Shown here one piece after another: positions 715-30,469 of a DNA stretch of 37,470 bases (its first letter is position 1; every line of letters starts with the position of its first letter). The position numbers were made by a program, and so were the translations under genes. The notes beneath the pieces are model-generated. The model saw only the letters and a list, made by a program, of their open reading frames with translations, did no database searches and was not told the DNA's origin. This stretch comes from Gymnopus androsaceus JB14 (taxonomy: Eukaryota > Basidiomycota > Agaricomycetes > Agaricales > Omphalotaceae). The stretch lies in the NCBI GenBank assembly GCA_009733575.1, contig ML769889.1, positions 1 to 37,470 of the forward strand, in the 5' to 3' direction.

Positions 715-940
715 GTGCTGAGACGTGATAGTATAAAGTTTTCTTTGTTTTCCCACCATTTCTTTCCAACGACCCATACAACTTTTTACGATCCAAAACA
801 CGCCTTTGAATGTCGCACTTGCCACCTTTCGACGTCGGACGATGCGATATTATGTTGATCCGTTGATCCAAAAGTCACAAGTGATCCAAGCGGCGTTTTT
901 CACTCTGGGCGCTTGGAGGCCTCGACCGCTACGAATCACT

Positions 941-947
941 GTATTAT
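941..947. repeat. Left target site duplication GTATTAT
   Basis: This 7-bp sequence lies directly against the left inverted repeat and is repeated exactly at 5008-5014 against the right one. The bases further out differ (ACT on the left, CCC on the right), so 7 bp is the full length of the match. Confidence 0.75.
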
Positions 948-981
948 TGGGGGTCGGCATAACCACTGAAGAAAACGGCAG
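948..981 (+). repeat. Left terminal inverted repeat
   Basis: It starts TGGGGGTCGGCA and is imperfectly inverted at 4974-5007. Mismatches against the other end fall at positions 13, 15, 18, 19, 22, 24 and 33. The shared inner block is AAAACGGC. Confidence 0.8.
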
Positions 982-1448
982 CTTTGGCTTTGTTTGTTCC
1001 CAGCCAAAGCCATGTTCCCACTGTAGCTCTCGCTCGTACTAGACTTAATCTCCATAACCCGTTGTAAAAATATTGTAGAAAGTATCCGTTAAATCATGAT
1101 AAATCAATCTGATCCTATATTTCAAGCTGAAATTTTAATCAAATTAATATGAGGCAAGTTGTGTAGCAAACTGGTACCAAAACTACCTGTAGCGTTATAA
1201 GTAATGTTTTTTTTAGAAAAAGGACTTGAAATACAGAAACGAGAAGCAATTCATTATCCTTTGGCCAATTCAATTTTGTAGTAAATGCGATGTAGCTGTG
1301 AACTAAGACCGCGAGATTCTGCAGGCCAAAATCACTGTGTGCACTTATTCTCACGCTTAGGCTTCTAACTACGACGCGTCGATTCGCGTCGTCGGACTGC
1401 GATCCTAGTCTCTTTCTTATTCTTATACCCTTTCTTGGACCTTATACC

Positions 1449-4400
1449 ATGCCTGGACGAAAATCTCCTGCCAAAATCGCTCAACTAAAGGCTTTACATG
1501 CCTCTAATGCCAAAGATCAACCTGACGAAAATTCTGTCCCTCTAATCTTTTCTGAAACTACTAATACCTCGACTTCCACGCGTTCTAATACCAGGAACAA
1601 GGCTAGCATCGCATCTTTGAAGTCCGAGCTTGAAGGAAAGGTCCAGGAGATAGATGGCCTGAAGGAAACGGTTTCGAAGGCAGCAGAGGATGCAGAGGTT
1701 CAGGAATCCAAGATCTCATCACTTTCGTTCGAAAAAATCACTCTCCTAGCCTCGATCGACACTCTTAAAGCCCAGAACTCGAATCTCATGTCCAGTGTAG
1801 CCCGGCATCGCTCAAGTCGCGGTAAATCTTTGAAGGAATTGCATAGTCTTGGAATTGATTCAAAGAGGGAGAAGAAAGCGTTGCAAAGGAAAGCTAGAGA
1901 CGAAAAGAAGAAGTATCTGAAGGAAATCGAGGGATTACAGGTCACTCTTGAAGAAAACTCACGCGTCATTTCCGTACTTGAACCCGAAAACTCGAAGCTC
2001 TGTCTTGCAGTCACGAAACTCGAAGAAAAACTTTCCGTGTCTTCCGCTACAGTCTCTACTCTTCGCGAACAAATTTCTTCGCTTCGTAAAACGATCTATG
2101 CTCTCGAAAAGCAGGTTGAGCGCTCGAAGAGCTCCCTTGCTACTAGTCGCATGGAGTTAAAGAAACTTTCGGTCTGGGATCCTACCGAAAAAGGCATATA
2201 CAAAGCCTCTGCTCGTAAACTCTTTCGTGACCTGAAAAGGGCTGGGTGTCGTAACCACGATCTTGCTGTCAAATCGTGTGCTGCAGCGTTTGGGATACGC
2301 GTCAAGCGTGTCATGAGCATGCGTACTGGTGGTCGTTGTGTCAGGGAAGGGGGGATCTATGGTTTGATGCAGCTCGGACGCGAGATCAAGAACGCGCCAT
2401 CCTTTGGTGAAGGCAGTGATGGAACGACGGTTAGAGGTGTTACGCAGGAATCTCGTTCGATTACAGTCTCCGTCCCATCGTATGAACCTGGTGTTGATGA
2501 TACAGATCAATCGACTTGGAAACCTGTGACGCGTTTTGCTGATGTTGCCCCTGCACTTGACCACACTGCTCAACGTCAATTTGAAGGATCGGTGGAGCTT
2601 GGTGAACGGATTGCGAACACCTATTCCAACAGTCCGTTAGCAAGTCGTGATGGGCAGAGAATGGATGCAGATGACTACTTTCGAAAGCAGGGTTTCCAGC
2701 ACATGGATCATGCAAAAGATGGGAAGAAGAAGTTTAGGCTCTCGAAGGAGAGGAAGGAACGAGTCGTTAACCGTGACCTTGCAAAGGAGAAGATGAGCAC
2801 GATGACTGTTGACGACATTCTGCGGGAATCGGAAAAGATTAGCGATGCGGATATTCTCAAAGCTGCAGGGAAGAAATTCAAATCTATTACTGAAATGTGA
2901 GTATTTTCTCACAAATATACTTTCATTGGATTGACATTATACCCATAGCTCCGAGTCTGACCGTGGTCAAATCACTCTTGATCTTCTTGAGCAGCGTATT
3001 GGGAAAGAGGCACTGGACATGCTTCCCGAGTCTGAGGCCAGGCTCCTCCGTCTCTTCTTCTTTGTTGGATGCGGTGGGCACAAGTCGCTTAATGCATTCC
3101 GCTATGGGGTCGTTGAAATGCGTGAGACGTGGAAACGGGAAGAACTGAAAGGTCCATGCAATCTTGCAAACAAGGCGACTGATGTGGCTATTCAAATTGC
3201 TACTGATAATACCGATACTGAAGCTCTCGCACGCTGTGTCGCTTCCTGTCCACGCGGTGGTACTAAACTCACCGAGCTTGCTGGTGCACTCTTCCGGCAC
3301 AAAAATCACGAAACTGGGTACCAGAAGAAACACGAAATGTTCATGCAGGCACGCAAACAGGAGCGATATGGTCTTAATCCTACCGACAGCTCGAAGCGAT
3401 TCCCAGATGTCTCAAATACTCGATATCAGTCCCACTCATATGCTGCTGCTGAGCTAGTTGTCTTTCGAGATGACTACCAAGAACTAATCGAGGAGATCTG
3501 TGACGGGAAAACGAAATCTGGCACTAATCACCTTGAAGGAAATGCATTGAAGGGACTACAAGATGCAGATACTCTCTGCGAGCTAGGTGCAATGGCGTTG
3601 GAAGGCCTTTGTTGTTCATGGCCATATATGGCTGAAGTTCGTACTCCGCCAGAAGGTGAACAGTTTGTAAATGCGCTGAGCCCGGAGATGATTGCTCTCC
3701 ATCGTCGAATCCCTGCCTTCTGCGAGAATCTCGCCCTTCATCCTGAAAAAATCTTTCATCCCAACACCCCTCAGAGCGAGTTGACCCTAGATGGAAAGCC
3801 TTTTATTGACAAAACCATCATTCCCGCTCTCAAATTACTCTCTGATGACCTCCCAAACCTCAATCTGATGATTTCTGCAATGTTCCGTGGTGCTACTCGT
3901 GGTTGGTCCATCTTCACACCCGAGTATCGTGATGATCCAAGTGATCCTACCACCATATCATCTCTTTCTCCAGAGATGCTCACTCGCCTTGGGGAGATTC
4001 CTATGACTAATGATGCGAATGAAGGACCGCTTGGCTCTACCCGGGTCTACATTCGCTTCAACCCTAGCAGTGATGCTTATATGTTTTCTGCACAGGCACG
4101 AGCAACGCGAAATAATACGGAATCTTTCATATCAAAACTTTGCACGTTTGATGACCAGTTACATGTGATGCGACTAGCTCGGGCAGAGGATGCAAGCGGG
4201 AAAGCGAGAAAGTTTCGGGAGGAATACCTCAGACTTCAAAAAGAACGTGCGGACTCTGCTCGAATCAAACAGGCCAATCTCATCCAAAAGAAATCCAACG
4301 AAGCAGAACGTTTGAATGCTCTCGGCGCTGAAACGGATCGCACGAAAATTCTGAACATGACTATCAAAGAACTTACCGACCAATTTAAGGTGTACAAATC

Positions 4401-4676
4401 TGTTCTAATGGATCCCATACTGGCAAACGTAACTCAATCTTCCATGAAGAAGAAGGAAAATTGGCTGGCTACTGTACTTGCAGCAGCAGCTCGTATGTAA
4501 GTACTCTGCTCTTCTATTGCTCTCACTTTTCATTCTTTTTTAGCTCGCCAGGATCCATCTCTACTACACCTGAAACTACACTAGGACCCGTTGAAGCAAT
4601 GGCTAAACGGCTGCAGGATTCCATGGACATGGATATTGATGATGAAATGGACGAAGACATGATGGATTTGAATTGA
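1449..4676 (+). CDS. Coiled-coil protein of unknown family carried by the transposon; candidate transposase
   Basis: Three exons (1449-2896, 2949-4496, 4544-4676) give 1,042 residues. Both introns have good donors (GTGAGT, GTAAGT) and acceptors (CATAG, TTTAG), both interrupt a codon after its second base, and the frame stays open, which fixes the model. The N-terminus is Ser/Thr/Lys-rich. Residues about 55-235 are long charged heptad-like coiled coil. Residues about 260-320 hold a compact Arg/Cys-rich segment (RAGCRNHDLAVKSC, then SMRTGGRCVREGG) that could be a DNA-binding helix module. The second half is globular, with a striking MTNDANEGPLGS motif, followed by another Arg/Lys-rich coiled coil and a very acidic Met/Asp C-terminus. 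I recall similar large proteins with a T-N-D-x-N-E-G motif as expanded families in mushrooms, but cannot name the family. Position inside inverted repeats and a target duplication suggests a transposase. A complete DDE triad cannot be assigned by eye. Confidence 0.8.
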
Positions 4677-4973
4677 ATGTATTTTTACTACTCGGAGATA
4701 GCTATAACTAACTTTCTGTATCATCACTTCAGCTACGTTACCTTGTTTTCGATGTTCTCGCCGTGTAAACTTGCCTGTATGTACCGAAAATGCAGTATTT
4801 GCCTTGTATTGGTACTTGATGATATTGAAACTCTATAAGATTTTGTGACCACTTAGATATCATATTTACGAACATATTGTACACCTAAATCTAAATGATT
4901 TGCGTCCTCGTTCATGTGGTACAAGGAGGAACATCGCAAAAAGCGGTTTGGCGCGGTTCCCACGGCTAAGCGC

Positions 4974-5007
4974 CCGCCGTTTTTTCCATAGGCTCTGCCG
5001 ACCCCCA
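4974..5007 (-). repeat. Right terminal inverted repeat
   Basis: Reads TGGGGGTCGGCA inward from 5007 on the minus strand and pairs with 948-981. Confidence 0.8.
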
Positions 5008-5014
5008 GTATTAT
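5008..5014. repeat. Right target site duplication GTATTAT
   Basis: Exact copy of 941-947, directly outside the right inverted repeat. Confidence 0.75.
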
Positions 5015-5567
5015 CCCTTGCGCTGCTCTTTACTACTATGGATCCAGCTCAGAACCTTTACCTATTGAATCTCTTACCGCTTACAATCGGAATTCAGCTG
5101 CGCTTTGAGTGGGTGTGAAACATTATGGGGTGAGCTCAAGACTATATTCTCGCAGTACTACGGACTACGGAAACGGTACAACACACTACGTTTTGGCTGA
5201 TCGAAGCTGAAGTTCCATTGCGACTAAATATGTCAAAGCGTTGAATACTTGTGTCCCGCAACCATGTACAAGTTCCGAGGCAGAATGAAGAACCAATTAC
5301 AGTCGCAGTTTTTGCCCTCAACGAATCATTGACTCACCAGCAAACCTATCGATCTGTTCTTCCCGTCAGTATTCAACGGCCTCGAAGTTGACCATCTTTC
5401 TCGGCTTCCCATGTCATTTTCTTTACTAAACTTTCTGTGTTCTGAATCGTATTGGCCTATATCCTCATATCGCGGCTTCAATTGTCATGCCGTGCCGCCG
5501 TCTTGCATCAGACATCGTTTAAAAGGTCCAACAAGCAAAACAACTCTTCTCTAGATATCAGATTAGG

Positions 5568-7742: not shown

Positions 7743-9329
7743 CTAGGAACTTTTTCCAATACCAACGACCCTCATACCCGCCTTTTCCACATGCCTCAGT
7801 CGACGATAAATGTTCTCATCCACCTCTCGATTCTTAAAACACATCACCGCCGAACGCAAGCATACCGTACCCACTCCAGAATCCAAAAAATTATCAAGGT
7901 TATCAGATAACCACCTCGAAGACACCATATCAATGAAGTCCCCATCGTTAAAGCTGGAGCCGCTAAATGTCATATGGAGATGTTGTAGCTTCTGTACCAA
8001 CACCGAGGAGGCGTCGAAGGGACAGGCATGTAGGCTTTGTATGAGCCGAGGGGTAATGGGACTGGGTTTGGTAGCAGTGGTAGCAAACAACCTGGAGTCA
8101 TCTATGGTGAGATCTAGGAGGGAAGGAAGGGAATGGAGTAAATCAATAAGGTCAGCATCTGAGAGTGGGATAAACTTGATGGAGAGAGTGGTGAGATTGA
8201 ATGATGACCGAGATATGAAAGCGCATAGTGCTTTCTTGGGCCATGGTCGCTGGTAATTATTCCTGGCCTCAAGAAGCAAAGAGGTCAAAGAAGGGCATGC
8301 CATCGATGAGAAGACCACTTCAGCCAAGCTCTCAGACAATCCTGTCTGAGATACTGACAAGGATAGTGTCTCAAGAACCGAAGCCATTGTGGGAGGTAAA
8401 GAAAGTTCATAGGATCCTGGTTTAATACCCACTTCTTGGAATTGCAACTCTGTCAGTTTATCGCACACATCTAGAATGTTTTTCATTCCACTAGGATGGT
8501 GCCCCATGGCAAGTAGTTTGAGCTGCTTCCATGGAAATTGGATTTCACCAAGATCCACTGAAGGAATGAATCCAACAGAAAGGCAGCACAGTTGCGGAGC
8601 ATCTTTGAAATCTTCTAGGCCAGCTGGGTAGAGATCTAAATGTGGACACAACAGTCTTTGCAGTGCCGGGTAATGGCGAGGATGCCAGGTCAGTGATTTA
8701 TAGACCTCAAATCCCTGCACTGAAAGCTGCTGCCAACGGTTAACATGTCCAACAAGAGCGTCACACACAGCTGCATGGTGCGGCTGAAGCGCTTCAGGCT
8801 TTCCGGTAATTTCAATGATGAGAGGAGATTGTTGGGAAGATTCGAGGTATAGATCCAGAACCGAAAAATTGTGGGAAGGGACCGACTCCATCTTGAAATG
8901 AATACGAGACCATAGTGCAGGACATGCCTTCACAAGGCTTCGCCAACGCAAGCACACATTGCTAATGGTCAAGGTAGGCATATCCCTAAATTTCTTTGAG
9001 GTGAGCTTGTTCATACCACAAGCATAATCAAAGATCTGCTGGACGGTTTCGTTCGGAATCTTCCGAACGGGAGATCGGAGGGAGCACGAATGAGTTCTGT
9101 ATCTCTCCAATAGCCGACGCTGGTTCTGAAGAACAAGAATACGCGACTGGAGACGGTCAATCTCGGCGTCGCAATCCTCGAGGTCTTTTTCAACGTCGGA
9201 GACGATACCGTCTATGTCTGCTTCGGTTTGTACAGAAGAACCATACTCTGAACGCAGCCTTTGGCGCAGCGCTACAAAGTCCAGATTGGTCCGTAGCCGG
9301 AAGCTCTGTTCGCCTGAAAGGTTCACCAT
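7743..9329 (-). CDS. F-box protein with leading coiled coil (copy A)
   Basis: A single open frame of 528 residues. Residues about 37-78 (VEKDLEDCDAEIDRLQSRIL...) form a coiled coil. The F-box follows at about 86-144 (SPVRKIPNETVQQIFDYACG ... ISNVCLRWRSLVKACPALW). The rest is irregular leucine-rich sequence of the kind that selects substrates. F-box proteins bind Skp1 in SCF ubiquitin ligases. This architecture is a large, fast-expanding family in Agaricales. It is a close paralogue of 17138-18742 (534 residues) and of the dead copy at 23043-24635. It lies 297 bp from the divergent gene at 9627. No intron is needed. The start is supported by similarity to MANLSGERSFRLRSNLDFVA in the sister copy. 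Confidence 0.88.
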   Translation of the reverse strand: MVNLSGEQSFRLRTNLDFVALRQRLRSEYGSSVQTEADIDGIVSDVEKDLEDCDAEIDRLQSRILVLQNQRRLLERYRTHSCSLRSPVRKIPNETVQQIFDYACGMNKLTSKKFRDMPTLTISNVCLRWRSLVKACPALWSRIHFKMESVPSHNFSVLDLYLESSQQSPLIIEITGKPEALQPHHAAVCDALVGHVNRWQQLSVQGFEVYKSLTWHPRHYPALQRLLCPHLDLYPAGLEDFKDAPQLCCLSVGFIPSVDLGEIQFPWKQLKLLAMGHHPSGMKNILDVCDKLTELQFQEVGIKPGSYELSLPPTMASVLETLSLSVSQTGLSESLAEVVFSSMACPSLTSLLLEARNNYQRPWPKKALCAFISRSSFNLTTLSIKFIPLSDADLIDLLHSLPSLLDLTIDDSRLFATTATKPSPITPRLIQSLHACPFDASSVLVQKLQHLHMTFSGSSFNDGDFIDMVSSRWLSDNLDNFLDSGVGTVCLRSAVMCFKNREVDENIYRRLRHVEKAGMRVVGIGKSS

Positions 9330-9626
9330 AAGAGTTGGAGGGATTCTGTAATTTGTCTTGAGTACAAAGAAATGATACAGCTTGGGTTCGACTTACAGTT
9401 GAGAGACTGTTATAGTCTTCCTGAGGAAATCCGGACGATGATTTTCTAGGAATATCTCCGACTTCAAGGGCTCCTTACTCCAGCGTATTGTCGTCAAAGA
9501 CCAAAGAGCCGTAGTAACGCTAGTCACTTGCCAAGCTTGTGGATCGTGACAGATCGTGACAAGTGCATTCAGTCTCGACCACGAGTACCAGTGACCAGAA
9601 TTTCCTTCCTTTACCCTCTCTCTTCC
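9330..9626. promoter_or_regulatory. Shared upstream region of divergent F-box genes, copy A
   Basis: This 297-bp intergenic region separates two outward-reading genes and matches 16787-17137 in inverted orientation along nearly its whole length. It contains a tandem 10-mer GATCGTGACA at 9542-9551 and 9552-9561, which is also conserved as a tandem in the other copy. The block GGGCTCCTTACTC-AGCGTATTGTCGTCAAAGA is likewise kept. Conservation of the non-coding part shows the duplication spanned the region; whether the 10-mer binds a regulator is not known. Confidence 0.55.
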
Positions 9627-16786: not shown

Positions 16787-17137
16787 GGAAGAGAGAGGAA
16801 ATTCTGGTCACCGGTACTGGTCACCGGTACTGGTGGTCCGAGTCGAGAACTGAATAATTCTGATAATTCACTGAATACACTTGTCACGATCTGTCACGAT
16901 CTACAAGCAAATGACTATCGTTACTACGGCTCTTTGTCTTTGACGACAATACGCTAGAGTAAGGAGCCCTTGAAGCATCGTGTGTATTCTTGCCGATATT
17001 TCTTGTGTCTTTCAGACAATTTTCATCTTCCGGATTCCCTCAGGGACTTTAACCACTTTTTCTTTCAACCGTAAGTCGAACCCAAGCCGTATCATTTCTT
17101 TTTACTCAATAAAAACTATAGAATCCCTCCAACTCTT
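16787..17137. promoter_or_regulatory. Shared upstream region of divergent F-box genes, copy B
   Basis: Inverted counterpart of 9330-9626. The tandem 10-mer TGTCACGATC (16882-16891, 16892-16901) is kept. Specific to this copy is a tandem duplication of the 13-mer GGTCACCGGTACT near 16806-16831. Confidence 0.5.
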
Positions 17138-18742
17138 ATGGCGAACCTTTCAGGCGAACGGAGCTTCCGGTTACGAAGTAATCTGGACTTCGTGGCGCTG
17201 CGCAAAAAGCTGCGTTCTGAGCACGGTTCATCTGTACAAACCAAAGCAGAAATAGACATAATCGTCTCCGACGTTGAAAAAGACATCGAGGATTGCGACG
17301 CCGAAATCGACCGCCTACGGTCCCGCATTCTTGTTCTTCAGAATCAGCGTCGGCTATTGGAGAAATACAGAACTTATTCGCGCTCCCTCCGATCTCCCAT
17401 TCGGAAGATTCCGAACGAAATTGTCCTGCAAATCTTTGATTATGCTTGCGGTATGAACAAGCTCACCTCGAAGAAAGTTGGAGATATGCCTACCTTGACC
17501 ATTAGCAACGTGTGCTTTTGGTGGCGAAGTCTTGTAAAGGCATGTCCTCCACTATGGTCTCATATTCATCTCGAGATGCAATCAGTCCCTCCCAACAACT
17601 TTTCGATTTTGGATTTATACCTCGAATCTTCCCGACAATCCTCTCTCATCATTGAAATTACCGGAAAGCTTGAAGCGCTCAAGCCGCACCATGCAGCTGT
17701 GTGTGACGCTCTTGCTGGACATGTTAACAGTTGGCAGCAGCTCACAGTACGGGACTGGGAGGTTTATAAATTCCTGACATCATCCCAGAATCCTCGACAT
17801 TATCCGGCATTGCAGTCACTTATGCTTCCAGACTTAATCCTCTTCCCAGCTGGTCTAAAGGATTATAGGGATGCTCTGCAACTGCACAGGCTAACCCTTC
17901 TTTCCATGCCTTCCATGAATCTTGGTGAAATCCAATTTCCATGGAAGCAGCTCAGACTACTTGCCCTGGGGAAACATCCCAGTGGAATAAAAAACATTCT
18001 AGATGTGTGCGATAAACTGAAGGAGCTACGCTTTCGAGAAGATTTCGATGGATCCTACAAACTTTGTCTACCTCCCGCAATGGCCCCTGTACTGAAATAC
18101 TATCCTTGTCAGTATCTCAGACAGAATCTATCTGAGAGCTTGGCTGAAGTGGTCTTCTCATCGATGGCATGCCCTTCCTTGACCTCTTTGCTTCTTGAGG
18201 CCAGGACTAATTACCGGCGGCCATGGCCCAAGGAAGTACTACGCGCTTTCATATCTCGATCATCATTCAATCTTACCACTCTCTCTATCAAGTTTATCCC
18301 GCTTTCGGATGCCGACCTTATTGATTTACTCCATTCCCTCCCTTCACTCCTAGATCTCACCATAAATGACTCCAGGCTGCCTGCTATGTATACCACTGCT
18401 ACCACCCCCAGTCCCATTACTCCTTGGCTTATGCAAAGCCTACACGCCTGTCCCTCCCACGCCTCCTCGGTGTTGGTACAGAGACTACAAAGTCTCCATA
18501 TGACATCTAGCGGCTCCGACTTCAACGATGGGGACTTCATCGATATGGTGTCCTCGAGGTGGTTACCTGATAACCTCGAGACCAGTAATTTTTTGGATTC
18601 TGGAGTGGGTACGGTATGCTTGCGTTCAGTGGTGATGCATTTTAAGAATCGAGAGGTGGATGAGAACATTTATCGGCGACTGAGACATGTGGAAAAGGCG
18701 GGTATGAGGATCGTTGTTATTGGAACAAGTTCCCAGTGTTAG
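17138..18742 (+). CDS. F-box protein with leading coiled coil (copy B)
   Basis: A 534-residue open frame and close paralogue of 7743-9329. The order is the same: coiled coil at about 38-78 (VEKDIEDCDAEIDRLRSRIL), F-box at about 86-144 (SPIRKIPNEIVLQIFDYACG ... VCFWWRSLVKACPPLW), then leucine-rich substrate-side sequence. A few short insertions (for example SSQN near residue 212 and MY in the SRLPAMYTT region) and a longer C-terminus (GTSSQC) distinguish it. The stop codon of copy A falls where this copy reads Gln-Cys-stop. It is presumed to act in an SCF ubiquitin ligase through Skp1; the target is unknown. Confidence 0.88.
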   Translation: MANLSGERSFRLRSNLDFVALRKKLRSEHGSSVQTKAEIDIIVSDVEKDIEDCDAEIDRLRSRILVLQNQRRLLEKYRTYSRSLRSPIRKIPNEIVLQIFDYACGMNKLTSKKVGDMPTLTISNVCFWWRSLVKACPPLWSHIHLEMQSVPPNNFSILDLYLESSRQSSLIIEITGKLEALKPHHAAVCDALAGHVNSWQQLTVRDWEVYKFLTSSQNPRHYPALQSLMLPDLILFPAGLKDYRDALQLHRLTLLSMPSMNLGEIQFPWKQLRLLALGKHPSGIKNILDVCDKLKELRFREDFDGSYKLCLPPAMAPVLKYYPCQYLRQNLSESLAEVVFSSMACPSLTSLLLEARTNYRRPWPKEVLRAFISRSSFNLTTLSIKFIPLSDADLIDLLHSLPSLLDLTINDSRLPAMYTTATTPSPITPWLMQSLHACPSHASSVLVQRLQSLHMTSSGSDFNDGDFIDMVSSRWLPDNLETSNFLDSGVGTVCLRSVVMHFKNREVDENIYRRLRHVEKAGMRIVVIGTSSQC

Positions 18743-23042: not shown

Positions 23043-24635
23043 TCACGATTCAGGACTTTTATCAACAATAACGACCCTCATGCCGGCCTGTTCAAGGTGC
23101 CTCGAGGGTGAATAAACCTTATCATTCACCCCTCGATTCCTGAAACGCATGACCACTGAGCGCAAGCACTCCGTCCCGATACCAGAATCCAAATGATTTG
23201 CGGTATGGACTTGAAGTCCAAACGCATCACTATCCGCAGGTAGCCACCTCGACGATACCATCTCTATGAATTCCCCATCGTCAAATGCGGTAGAGCCACT
23301 GAAAGTTACGTCGAGAGTCTGCAGCCTCCGTACAAGAGCGGAGGAGACTGAGGCGGATTTTGTGTGAGGGAAGGCGTGCAGACTATGTATGAGCCGAGAG
23401 GTAATGGGGCTTGGGGTGGTAGCAGTGGTGGCGAGTGATTGCTTGGAGTCATCTATGGTGAGATGGAGGAGGGAAGGAAGGCGATGGAGTAAATCAATAA
23501 GGTCGGCGTCCGAGAGTGCGATAAATTTGATGGAAAGAGTAGTGAGGTGGAACGACGACCGAGATATGAAGGTGTGTAAAGCTTCTTTAGGCCACGCTCG
23601 ACGGTATTCATTCCTGGCCTCAAGAAGTAAAGAGGTCAAGGAAGGACATGACATCGATGAGAAGACCACTTCAGCCAAGCTCTCCGACAGAGATGTCTGA
23701 GAAACGGACAACGATAGCGTCTCAAGAACCGAAGCCGTTGCGGGAGGTGAAGAAAGTTCATAGGATCCTGGTCCAGCATCCACTTCTCGGAATTGCAACT
23801 CTGTCAGTTTATCACAGATGTGTAAAACATTTTTCATTCCACTCGGATGTCTCTCTAGGGAAAGTAGTCTGAGCTGCTTCCATGGAAATTGGATTTCACC
23901 AAGATCCTGAGAAGGAAGGACACGAATGTACACAGATGCGGAGCATTCCTGTAACGTTCTAGACCGCGTAGATAGAACTCGAAATCTGGAACTATAAGGG
24001 TCTTCAGTGCCAGATAATTCAGATATGATACATACCCAGCCCCGCACTGAAAGCTGCTGTCAACGGCTAACATGTGCAATAAGAGCAGAACAGACAGTCT
24101 GGTGATGTAGCTCTAGCGTCTTGGGTTTGCCAATGAGTTCAATACAAAGGGGAGATTGTCGAGAAGATTCAAGATATAAGCCTAAAATGAGGAATTCGTT
24201 GGGAGGAATTAACTGCATGTTGATGCGAATAAAAGACCAAAGCGCAGGTCGAGTTTTTACGAGGCTTCGCCAGCGTGAGCACACACTACTAATCACCAAG
24301 GTAGGCATATCCCCTAATTTCTTTGAGGTGAGCTCGTTCATACCACAAGCATATTCAAAGATGCGAAGGACAGTTTCGTTGGGAAGCCTTCGAATAGGGG
24401 ACCTAAATGAGCGCAGGTAAGTCCGGTATTGCTCTAAAAGCCGATGCTGATTGTGAAGAGCGATAATGCGTGACTGCAGGCGGCCGACCTCCGCCTCGCA
24501 ATCCTCAAGGTCTTTGTCTACGTCGGCGAGAATTCCAGTTACGTCCGTGACAGCAGGACCATGTTCGCAACGCAGCCTTTCAAGTAGCGCCACGAAGTCC
24601 AGATTGCTTCGTAGCCGGAAGGTCTGTTCTCTCAT
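23043..24635 (-). pseudogene. F-box gene with leading coiled coil, dead copy (copy C)
   Basis: Homologous along its whole length to 7743-9329 and 17138-18742. The first 191 codons are open (coiled coil DKDLEDCEAEVGRLQSRIIA; F-box RRLPNETVLRIFEYACGMNE). A nonsense change then turns the Trp codon of SWQQL into TGA near 24058. The following ~180 bp need at least two frame changes (YLNYLALKTLIVPDFEFYLR is readable in a different frame) before the C-terminal 300 codons resume with LGEIQFPWKQLRLLSL. Similarity to copies A and B extends into the upstream flank up to about 24740. Confidence 0.85.
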
Positions 24636-24781
24636 TCGCTTTTCGGATAAGAGATATCAGGATTCTATACATTATCTTTAGAAGAAAAAATGATGCAGTC
24701 TGAGTTTCACTTATAGCTGAGAGAGTTCGGGAAAGAACTAATTGAGACTCTTGTTAGCCTCCAAGAGCTGATATCCATGAG

Positions 24782-25482: not shown

Positions 25483-26649
25483 ATGATGTCTGATGCTACA
25501 GAAGAAACCGACAAATCGAGTTGGAAGCGACTCACGCTTACCCCTATTAAGGAGGGAGACGATGGCTCGAACAACTACAACAAGTTCAGGAGAAAATCTA
25601 CACTTGAACTCGATGCAATGGGCTACTGGAAATTCATCGATGGACCAGAATACAACCCACCGAAGATTCCAGAACTCCAACCGAGTACATGAGTTGAAGG
25701 AGTAGACGATACAGGGAATAAAGTCTCAATCAGATTACCTGGAAACGAAATACTTGTCCAGGCTGCGAAATACGATGCGAAAGCCTGGCTCGACGGCGAC
25801 AAGAAGACTCTATCAGCCATAGTCAAGGCTGTCCCCATCCAGAAACTGTATGTTGTCAATGGATGCACAACTGCTCACGCAGCATGGTTTGCCCTCAAGA
25901 ACGAATACGAGCCGGCAAACAGTCTTGCAGCCATTGGTATCAAACAGCAAATTATTGGTAATTGCTGCATCAAAGGTGATGACCCCGTAAACTGGCTGCG
26001 GGTCATGATTCAACTTTACGGGAGACTTCGAGACGCTGACCCGACTATGATGCCTGACACCAAATTTGCGAGGCACCTCGCCACCCTGATGACTGGCGAT
26101 GTTAATTGGAGGTACTGCCGAGATGACCTCCGCAGGTTGATGAAAGAAGCAGAGGCGGCTGGGAAACCGTACTCGTTGAAACAGGTGATACAATGTCTGA
26201 GAGAGGAGGAGATCGAGATGGGAATAGCCCCTTCGGTAGCATCTATCAACGCTATAGTCGCGACAGGTAAAGGAAAGGGCAGAGAACGTGCTGTTCCTGG
26301 TGTCTATTCAGCTGGACAACAATTCACTCCTCAGGGAAACTCCAAGCACCAGAGTCAGAGGAACGATCGAAAACAGAAACCTTACCCTGGTGGAAATAAC
26401 CGCTCCAATCCCAAGCTTATCTGCGACAACACACACTGTGCTTTCCCAGTCGGCCACACGAAGGCCGAGTGCTTCGTCTACGGAGGTGGTAAAGCAGGTC
26501 AATACCCACCCAACTTCCGAGGTCAAAGGGATATACACCTCTCCCCGGAAGCTAGAGTCGCTGCACGTAGGAAGCAAGCAATTGAGAAAGCCAATGGGAA
26601 TGTAGCGACCACAAAGATGGTAGAAGAGGTCGACGGTGACCCAAGTTGA
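25483..26649 (+). pseudogene. Copia gag region
   Basis: From MMSDATEETDKSSWKRLTLT to VEEVDGDPS, with an in-frame stop near 25690. Matrix/capsid-like helices (DGDKKTLSAIVKAVPIQKLY, WFALKNEYEP, LMTGDVNWRYCRDDLRRLMK) follow. A zinc-knuckle-like CDNTHCAFPVGHTKAEC is seen at about 26420-26470, as in Copia gag. A second stop ends the frame before the protease. Confidence 0.75.
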
Positions 26650-26655
26650 CACACC

Positions 26656-27179
26656 GTGTCTGCGAACTACGGACAGGCGACGGAGGAGGAAGTGGAGGAA
26701 ATTCTAGGGCAAGTAGAAGGCAGCTTTGCCTTCATGATGGAAGTGGAAGGAGACGTTGTTGATGACGATGATGAGATCAAGTTTGATGAAGTTGTAAATG
26801 TCAACGCGGTAGCATTGAACATGGACATTCCACCCGAAGACTCGGTAAACCATGACACTGGAGCCACAAGGCATATATTTCGCGACAGAAAATTCTTCCA
26901 CGACTACGCAGACCTTGAAACACCACTCAGTGTCCATGGTTTTGGTTCAAAACTATCTGCTGTAGCCATCGGGAAAGGGTCAATTGTACTAAAGGCAAGC
27001 GTAGGAAATTCGACCCACACCTTTTCACTATCAAATGTCCTACATATCCTGTCTGCTTGTTGCAACCTTATCTCCGGTTCTAGACTCGATAGGAAAGGTG
27101 TCAGCACTCGCACTGGTGATGGGAAGATCACTTACCTCAATGAGAAAAAGGTGCCGTTCGCATTGGGGTCCATCATATG
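26656..27179 (+). pseudogene. Copia aspartic protease region
   Basis: The active-site-like motif HDTGATRHIF (Asp codon at 26854) replaces the usual D-S-G-A with D-T-G-A. LSNVLHILSACCNLISGSRL matches the conserved block near the protease end (normally NVLYVP...NLIS). The frame stops at 27179 before the integrase zinc domain. Confidence 0.7.
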
Positions 27180-27352
27180 AGAGTTGTACAAGATGGATGT
27201 GGTCCTGGTACAAGCCCGGACTCTGATCCGAAGAAGTCCTCGACATCCTCGCAATCAGCGATGATGGCGGGAATGGTTCCTGATGTTACGAGATTGTTTG
27301 GTCCCAGTTCGGATTCCGAACTGGCCAAACATGTGGGTTTTACCACTGTCTA

Positions 27353-28063
27353 ATGGGCCATATAGACGTTAAAGGCCTCAAGCGCGCCACTACTGGCCTT
27401 CCAATTGATGCGGTAGAGGTCAAGAACTGCCGCATATGTGCGCTATCGAACATCAAACACCTTCCTTTTCCTCGACGGTCTCATACACGAGCAGACCGTC
27501 CTCTATTCCGTATTCATTCCGACATTTGTGGTCCCCTTCCTCTCGGTTACGGCTCTTTTCGTTACTTCATTATATTTGTTGACGACCACTCTCGTTATAT
27601 CTGGATATTCTTCCTGAAGACGAGATCGGACACCATTAAATCTTTCGACGAATTCCGCCTGGCAGCGGAATGATACCTGGGATATCTCGTTTCTGTCTTG
27701 AGGGTAGACAACGCCCCCGAACTCATATCAGGTGCTTTCGAAACTTACTGCAAGAAAGTGGGTATCTCATACGAGAGACCTATAGCCAATGCGCACCAAC
27801 AGAATGGAGTCGCTGAGCGAACCATTCAAACTATCGAATACATGATGCACGCAATGCTCGTTGATGGGAATCTGTCCCATTGGTTTTGGCCTTGTCTGCA
27901 CTAGCAGGCATCTACATAAAGAACCGCGTCCCACATTCTGCCATTCCCAACAAAACCAAAACACCATTCGAATCCATCCTAAATCGACGAGCTGACTTAT
28001 CACATCTCCGCCCTTTTAGGCGCTCTAGTCACCTCGAGGAAGACCTATTCGGACAGCCTCAAT
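27353..28063 (+). pseudogene. Copia integrase region
   Basis: A zinc-binding H-C-C segment (MGHIDV ... NCRICALSNIKH) precedes the catalytic core. The DD35E triad is complete: HSD (Asp at 27521), RVDNAPE (Asp at 27707) and NGVAE (Glu at 27815), with 35 residues between the last two. A stop near 27671 and a frame change near 27900 break the frame. GNLSHWFWPC and NRVPHSAIPNKTKTPFE are further family blocks. Confidence 0.8.
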
Positions 28064-28314
28064 AAAGTTACCGAACATGGAGAAGAAGGGCGTTTTGTGG
28101 GTTATGCGAGAGATTCTAAAGGGTATCTCATCTACTTTCCACAGTCTCAGCACCATCCGTGCGCAATGACGAGATGTTGTATTTCACAGTTTTCCCTCTT
28201 CCTTGCCCTCCCCTCCGCCTTCAGAATTCCTCTTGGGACGAACATTCCTTTCGAATCCGAGCGTCGTGAACGAGACACTGAATGAGGCAGCGAACACTTC
28301 CCGCGAGACACCCT

Positions 28315-28560
28315 TATGCCACAAGATGGCAAAAGTCCACAAGATGGCATTGAAAGTCCACAAGCTGGCGACTCAGACGCGTGAGTAATGACTCTGTGTC
28401 CAAGAAATTTGTTCTAACCTGTACATACAGGTTGAACCCAAGTCCACAAGATGGCACCTCACAGTGCAGTAAGATGCTCCCTGACTCAGTTTAAAATTAA
28501 AAAAATTTACATTAAATTGTAATTGTAGCTGGCCACAAGATGGCATCGCTCCTGGTACAC
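28315..28560 (+). repeat. Degenerate CCACAAGATGGC repeats in the Copia linker
   Basis: CCACAAGATGGC or a close variant occurs five times between integrase and reverse transcriptase, encoding P-Q-D-G or P-Q-A-G units in one frame. Two intron-like segments (28381-28430 and about 28469-28528) interrupt the array. Confidence 0.6.
28381..28430 (+). other. Spliceosomal-intron-like segment inside the Copia element
   Basis: GTGAGT donor, CTAAC branch-like motif, TACAG acceptor, 50 nt. Joining the flanks keeps the frame of a P-Q-D-G repeat on both sides. Confidence 0.55.
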
Positions 28561-28845
28561 CATCTAATAATCCTGTGGACAAAGATGTCATCATGGACAA
28601 TCCCCCAGTGGATGCTCCGAGGCGAAGTGGCCGTACATGTAGACTTCCAGCAAGATACATGTGGTTAACCATGTCGGTACCTCAGATGAGGGGGGGCCAG
28701 ACTCAAACTTACTCGAATATATCCTCAGCACCGACAATGAACTGGAGATCGAATATGCGACAAGACAGATTTCCCTTCCTTAGCACAAAGCTTCATACAT
28801 GCACTGAAATTGCCTATGCAGGTGCTGTGCTCACTGAACCAATAG

Positions 28846-29849
28846 ATGATTCCAAAGAGAAAGACCCGGCTTCAGTTCAAGAAGCGCAGTCTTCGATATA
28901 CTTGGACCTATTGGCTAGCTGCTATCTATGAGGAGCTCGAATCATTGAAAGAGAAAGGAGTGTATGAGGAAGTAGATGAGCTTCCACAAGGAAGGAAAGC
29001 ATGTGGGTCCAAATGGGTCCTACACATCAAATGAAACAAGGAAGGTCTCATTGCACAATTCAAAGCTCGTCTCGTAGCAAAGGGCTTCACCCAGATTCCC
29101 AGGGCAAGACTTCACTTATACTTTCGCCCCCGTCACTCGCTGGGAATCAATGAGGACAATCCTAGCCCTAGTTGCTGAACATGACATGGAATTACGCCAA
29201 ATTGACATGTCAAAACAGCTTATTTAAATGGTCCCCTGGACAAGGAGATTTACATGCGAAAGCCTTGATTGTAGGATCAGGTTACTGGAGATTATGAAAG
29301 GGACTATATGGGCTCAAACAGTCAGGGAGACAATGGTACTTGGAACTGAACTCGAAGCTCGAGTCCATTGGTTTCAAACAAACAGAATCAGACTGGAGCG
29401 TATACACTTGCACTCAAGGATCTGAACGATCTTACATCACCACCAGCATTGACAACATGCTCATTGCATCATCTTTGAAATCCGAATCTGACTCTGTTAT
29501 CGACTCACTTGCATCCCTATTTGAGATCACTGACAATGGTGACCCAACCTTTCATCTTGGCTGCGGTATCACATGGGACAGAGAAGCACGCACCCTGAAG
29601 ATTGATCAATACACGTACACACAGTCTATCCTCTGGGAATTCGGTTTCGAGAATTGCAACCCCATCCACACACCCATGGATCCAGGAAAATGCTTATCAC
29701 CACAAACCACTCCCCTCACACCTGAAGAGCAGAAAACAGTGGACAAATTCCCTTATGGCGCCATGTTGTTGGAAAATGCATGTATCTCTCGAATTGTTTG
29801 TGTTCCGACATCAGCTACACCGTTTGGGAACTGGCTGGCTACATGGTGA
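28846..29849 (+). pseudogene. Copia reverse transcriptase region
   Basis: Starts with AAIYEELESLKEKGVYEEVD and CGSKWVLHIK, the usual N-terminal Copia RT block, then QFKARLVAKGFTQIP. Stops near 29032 and several frame changes follow. The catalytic Y-V-D-D is replaced by S-I-D-N (29445-29456), with MLIAS after it, so the enzyme could not be active. Confidence 0.8.
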
Positions 29850-29905
29850 GCTATGGTCTGTCGCACATTGCTGCCGCAAAACACCTCCTATGATACCTAA
29901 AGGGG

Positions 29906-30469
29906 ATGCAGAAGCACACGCTTGTTCTGGGATTGACAAATTTGGTCTATCCTATGATACGAGTGCTGTCTGACTCGGATTGGGGAATGGGCGATTCCAA
30001 GAAATCTATATTGGGATTCATCATTATGATGGGTGATTCACCACTCTCATGGAGTTCGAAACAACAGGGTGTTGTCGCCCTATCATCATGCAAAGCAGAA
30101 TACCTCGTATCTACGCACTGCACACAAGAAGTTCTGTGGTTCAGGAACCTCTTTAATGAACTAGGATTCTCACAACACTCTCTGACAACTATCTTCTGCG
30201 ACAACCAAGGGGCAATTGCCTGCACTCACGACCCTCATGCACATAGCAAAATGAAACATATCACTATACACGAACACTTCATTCGGGATTGCATTCTCAA
30301 ACGACAAATTGACATCGTCTATATTTTAAACAAGGACAACTTTGCGGACTTACTTACTAAACCATTACACAGAGTACTACATACACGATGGGTCTCAATG
30401 CTCAGACTCGATGCCGGTCAAGGGGGGGTGTTGTTGGTGAATGACCAAGCATCTAATTGGAGCGCCTAA
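29906..30469 (+). pseudogene. Copia RNase H region
   Basis: SDSDWGMGDSKKSILGF, SSCKAEYLVSTHCTQEVLW and FCDNQGAIACTHDPHAHSKM are the conserved RNase H blocks (Asp, Glu, Asp ligands all present). VYILNKDNFADLLTKPLHR is the typical end of a Copia polyprotein. The frame then runs into the 3' LTR. Confidence 0.85.
30420..30428 (+). promoter_or_regulatory. Polypurine tract
   Basis: AAGGGGGGG immediately before the 3' LTR, the expected plus-strand primer. Confidence 0.7.

Follow-up and report, generated by a model that had tools for sequence, protein, structure and literature searches.

We analysed a stretch of 37,470 nucleotides (the window), which is the whole of contig ML769889.1 (C507) in the 83.3-Mb, 934-contig assembly of Gymnopus androsaceus JB14 and contains a candidate DNA transposon of 4,060 base pairs (bp) at positions 948-5007. 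The unit is enclosed by a perfect 7-bp target duplication, GTATTAT, and by inverted ends that are complementary at all 12 of their outermost positions (TGGGGGTCGGCA at 948-959 and TGCCGACCCCCA at 4996-5007) and at 27 of 34 over their full length. In a repeat search of positions 801-5200, this pair ranked first among the inverted repeats (38 nt, 79 %, with six bases of the duplication included). A single long gene of three exons lies in the unit, and its frame is open through 1,042 codons with no internal stop, giving a protein of 1,042 residues; splicing was deduced from the reading frame and the intron borders, not from transcripts. A first-pass annotation of this DNA had described the same unit, ends and duplication as well as a spliced, uninterrupted gene, and its coordinates and the complementarity of the ends are confirmed here. 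It had also characterised the product as a long coiled-coil protein; a coiled coil is indeed present, but it is confined to approximately the first 240 residues, and the part conserved among homologues spans approximately residues 250-960. The features of the window copy are listed below, where aligned rows refer to a 158-row protein alignment of the family.

941..947, no strand: left target-site duplication GTATTAT, with the same sequence as 5008-5014.
948..981, plus strand: left terminal inverted repeat, beginning with the 12 bases TGGGGGTCGGCA; complementary to the right end at 27/34; the consensus TGRNNRTGGGCA comes from 16 ends.
1449..2896, plus strand: exon 1, with the N-terminal coiled coil, a conserved box and the first acids D324, D420 and D424 (open frame, GT donor, conservation).
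2418..2420, plus strand: codon D324 in the motif SDGTT, candidate first catalytic acid; D in 138/143 aligned rows.
2706..2720, plus strand: codons D420 to D424 (DHAKD), either of the two aspartates being the candidate second catalytic acid; D420 in 152/156 and D424 in 155/156 rows.
2897..2948, plus strand: predicted intron 1, GT..AG, 52 bp.
2949..4496, plus strand: exon 2, with the CxxH motif, a helical-looking block and TND-x-NEG; 46 matches in the genome.
3070..3081, plus strand: codons C524 to H527 (CxxH); C in 157/157 and H in 156/157 aligned rows.
4021..4023, plus strand: codon E841 in TNDANEG, candidate last catalytic acid; E in 145/148 aligned rows.
4497..4543, plus strand: predicted intron 2, GT..AG, 47 bp.
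4544..4676, plus strand: exon 3, an acidic C-terminus with stop TGA at 4674-4676 (open frame, splice borders).
4974..5007, minus strand: right terminal inverted repeat, ending in TGCCGACCCCCA; exact copies of the last 12 bases are found at the right ends of the copies on contigs C36 and C261 and at the left ends of those on C36 and C167.
5008..5014, no strand: right target-site duplication GTATTAT, by sequence.

The protein encoded by exon 2 was searched against the same assembly, where it gave 46 matches on 29 contigs at identities from 100 % to 27 %, and the flanks were compared for the 19 copies of which both sides were fetched. Eight of these 19, the window copy among them, show a perfect 7-bp duplication directly adjoining paired ends that agree at no fewer than 13 of 16 bases, as the first-pass annotation had proposed to look for. 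The duplication is different in each of the eight, namely GTATTAT in the window, CAAGAGG in C593, AATATAT in C220, CAAAGAA in C49, TGTACAG in C60, CTAGTTG in C82, CAATGAA in C215 and TATACAC in C298. When left and right flanks were deliberately mismatched as controls, a 7-bp duplication appeared in 2 of 342 combinations and one of 8-10 bp in no more than 3 others. T1, G2, C11 and A12 never vary over the 16 ends of the eight good copies, whose consensus reads TGRNNRTGGGCA. A ninth duplicated copy, C377, has CAGTAAG on both sides and a damaged left repeat that is cut to TGGGA. Family members that are only about 30 % identical in protein have the same ends and the same duplication length. An ordinary host gene flanked by inverted repeats that arose by chance would likewise be expected to show selection on its protein; however, eight copies with different duplications over so low a background, together with the several family copies that are truncated or stop-bearing, make such an explanation hardly credible.

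A search for the end pattern allowing up to two mismatches gave 33 matches as against 20 for the reversed control, and a few of them resemble solo ends. On C247 (L051), C7 (L053) and C318 (L059), contigs without a match to the exon 2 protein, ends of the TGGTAGTCGGCA/TGGGAGTGGGCA type occur singly and may be solo ends or non-autonomous copies.

Homologues were sought with three queries, each search scoring approximately 8,000 candidates: residues 245-960 of the window protein detected 49 proteins, a 47-row profile detected 9, and the C593 exon detected 229, of which 120 were listed. Among the matches listed, all named proteins are hypothetical, uncharacterised or unnamed and belong to mushroom-forming fungi (for example Mycena, Lentinula, Schizophyllum, Trametes, Armillaria, Suillus and Ceratobasidium), some rows being metagenome proteins without a host; none of those listed is a named transposase or carries a precomputed Pfam domain. 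In a midpoint-rooted tree of 154 rows, 43 rows fall with the window protein and 111 with C593, at local support of 0.59 and 0.98, respectively. The window and C593 proteins are identical at 154 of 505 core positions, and the other six good copies are related to C593, with approximately 27-32 % identity to the window protein. Since paired ends with 7-bp duplications occur on both the window side and the C593 side of the tree, this architecture is present in both lineages, within one genome. The first-pass annotation had suggested that such proteins, if they sit inside such ends, would form a new transposon group; in this genome they are found there in eight of 19 copies and across two deep protein lineages.

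In the 158-row alignment the conserved residues listed above form a D..D..CxxH..E pattern, and none of the six is altered in 119 of the 131 rows that are gapless at these columns, the other 27 rows being gapped there. Median spacings are 87 residues from D324 to D424, 101 from D424 to C524 and 296 from C524 to E841. The T-N-D-x-N-E-G motif around E841, which the first-pass annotation had linked to mushroom proteins usually annotated as hypothetical, is borne out by the near-invariance of the glutamate across proteins from many mushrooms. From this conservation we infer that D324, D420 or D424, and E841 form an RNase H-like catalytic site. Considering that the catalytic role of the protein is deduced from its sequence, it might instead be a passenger in an element moved in trans by another transposase; however, the unit contains no other long gene, both protein lineages carry the gene between related ends, and the acids and the CxxH motif are conserved, which leaves this alternative very improbable.

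Taken as a working model of mechanism, the unit at 948-5007 is probably a copy of a cut-and-paste DNA transposon with a predicted D-D-E transposase, and the window copy is presumably autonomous. The N-terminal coiled coil may multimerise the transposase, and the multimer would bind both element ends, with the conserved box before D324 and the block of approximately 300 residues between CxxH and E841 possibly serving end binding and assembly. The transposase would then excise the element at its TG..CA ends and join it to a target opened with a stagger of seven bases, and repair of the gaps in the staggered target would yield the 7-bp duplication.

Several observations weigh against this interpretation. 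No end pair was found in nine of the 19 copies (C181, C105, C547, C343, C61, C89, C256, C332 and the right half of C36), so that homologues lacking the ends, an outcome named at first pass as refuting, are partly observed alongside the eight paired copies. The right end is still recognisable in C105, C547, C343 and C36, and because several of these copies are truncated or interrupted, we read the nine as decayed. The copy on C113 (182-187 kb; L039, L010) has an inverted repeat that is perfect over 44 bp, but its flanks, GTATATG and CTATATC, are unequal and have only TATAT in common, as would follow either from two changes within the duplication or from an event of 5 bp. Two further glutamates, E679 and E808, are conserved too. 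Homologues in other species are known as proteins alone, the ends and duplications having been seen in G. androsaceus only, and the homologue searches are bounded by the number of candidates scored, the C593 result resting on the 120 of 229 matches listed. Finally, when an empty site with joined flanks was sought in this assembly, only the filled site matched, so that the assembly gives no sign of recent movement of the window copy or of its present activity.

The nearest DNA relatives of the window copy are all broken. C261 is 99 % identical in exon 2 and has one stop, and its match starts no earlier than window position 1882 and runs to the right end, while C167 retains the left part only. 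On C36 (259.6-276.2 kb; L002, L009) a right half is separated by about 12 kb from an oppositely oriented left half that contains two inserts, one of about 0.37 kb and one of about 1.3 kb; the two halves look like a rearranged or nested copy. Comparison of the window copy with three copies at 65-66 % protein identity gave proportions of non-synonymous differences (pN) of 0.21-0.23 and of synonymous differences (pS) of 0.77-0.83, the latter being saturated. Seven synonymous and five non-synonymous differences separate the window copy from C261, and the pN/pS-type ratio to the decayed C36 half is 0.76.

The first-pass annotation could not place the protein in a known transposase superfamily, and neither could we by profile searches. 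In Pfam, the two exons of the window and ten sister proteins matched no transposase and no family over the cut-off, while 47 members weakly matched 33 families at E<=0.1, with no transposase among the 25 listed. In the same three sets there was no hAT model among the matches listed and no match to PF18758 (KDZ) or PF10551 (MULE). NCBIfam gave one weak match, below the cut-off, for eight proteins. In a profile search of PDB with the full alignment, matches were restricted to the coiled coil or the extreme C-terminal part (best E 0.00049), and a set of 18 proteins with short N-termini had no match. With exon 2 alone, residues 280-359 resembled viral fusion proteins (best E 1.6e-5, others >0.09), which was taken as chance because the profile search did not repeat the match.

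Known families are themselves abundant in this genome, with profile matches numbering 23 for MULE, 145 for hAT dimerisation and at least 161 for KDZ, and none of those listed overlaps the 46 matches of the present family; the nearest noticed was a hAT match at C316:5261-5380, approximately 1.4 kb from a family fragment. Local hhalign comparison of the family profile with two KDZ and two MULE proteins, all four confirmed to carry these domains, gave scores at the level of shuffled sequences, a weak negative because the profile was set against single sequences. The positive controls were three family members not included in the profile, each of which scored 100 %; they have relatives within it at 39-46 % identity. 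According to PMC4455052, Repbase treats a group as a separate superfamily when iterated profile searches with it do not converge on a different one; our homologue searches agree with this rule, although the limit on scored candidates precludes proof.

The order D, D, C/DxxH, E is shared by the family protein with hAT, MuDR, P, Kolobok and Dada. hAT transposases have a long block between CxxH and E, as is the case here (median 296 residues), and a strongly diverged lineage of a named C/DxxH superfamily, most plausibly hAT, lying beyond the reach of sequence profiles, would account for both the identical order and this block. The hAT7 elements of rust fungi, which are classed by their similarity to hAT, also make 7-bp duplications like those of the window family (PMC12730594). 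On the other hand, no hAT, MULE, KDZ or other transposase Pfam model passed the cut-off in the proteins scanned, and the absence of overlap with the listed hAT-dimerisation matches points the same way, for a profile that covers the C-terminal domain only. The ends of the family begin with TGRNNRTGGGCA, and its protein has an N-terminal coiled coil, with no BED-type finger seen. We regard membership in a named C/DxxH superfamily as possible and somewhat doubtful.

A possible relative is Abr1 of Agaricus bisporus, a short element from a mushroom that likewise has inverted ends and a duplication of 7 bp. PMC10051438 calls Abr1 a hAT-type non-autonomous element.

Dada elements also come close. As described in PMC3706591, they make 6-7 bp duplications, have no terminal inverted repeats, target snRNA and tRNA genes and encode CCCC and CCHC zinc fingers, and the zebrafish protein has the spacing D-68-D-176-E. 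The duplication length, the residue order D, D, DxxH, E and the spliced gene would suit a Dada lineage of fungi in which inverted ends were retained or acquired; Dada occurs in Laccaria, and 15 of its families have been annotated in Agaricus bisporus. In contrast, the window family has inverted ends and eight different targets, and C524 and its neighbour 525 are the only columns in which half or more of the 158 rows share a cysteine, with no N-terminal CCCC set conserved (Dada was compared by description only). Such an origin is unlikely. Kyakuja, a KDZ group, has 7-bp duplications and CA..TG ends without inverted repeats (PMC12730594); it resembles the window family in duplication length and in its occurrence in mushroom-forming fungi, whereas the latter has TG..CA inverted ends and the KDZ profile matched no member scanned. 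For MuDR/MULE, Pfam gave no match and the hhalign scores of the two MULE proteins stayed at the level of shuffles; for P and Kolobok the comparison consisted of the Pfam scans, which gave no match either. The first-pass view of the duplication length as unusual thus stands in that 7 bp is uncommon, but not as a unique trait, considering Kyakuja, hAT7 and Dada.

No description of the group was recognised in the literature searched, Repbase, most subscription papers and preprints lying outside that search. In their available portions, the mushroom papers PMC9674265, PMC8290104, PMC10051438 and PMC7473861 name hAT, KDZ, Plavaka, Dada and others, and not this group. The transposon group is real, its general kind is known, and no library or paper searched names it. 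We are inclined, with some reserve, to think that it deserves the rank of a superfamily within the C/DxxH set, alongside hAT, MuDR, P, Kolobok and Dada. On balance, the evidence favours a new eukaryotic cut-and-paste superfamily spread over mushroom-forming fungi, hidden among hypothetical proteins, with TGRNNRTGGGCA ends, 7-bp duplications and a D-D-CxxH-E transposase.

Other parts of the window were inspected by eye. Positions 638-713, 230 bp to the left of the element, look tRNA-like, and ARAGORN and Rfam report nothing there. Three related open reading frames in both orientations (7743-9392, 17075-18742 and 23043-24656) appear F-box-like and constitute a local gene duplication, and those at 25693-30469 resemble pieces of a Copia-type retrotransposon.

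Hundreds of hypothetical mushroom proteins could be reclassified as probable transposases and the repeat libraries corrected, and one more branch of the C/DxxH transposases would be open to testing. Since its ends are intact and its gene is open, the window copy is a ready candidate for a yeast transposition assay.
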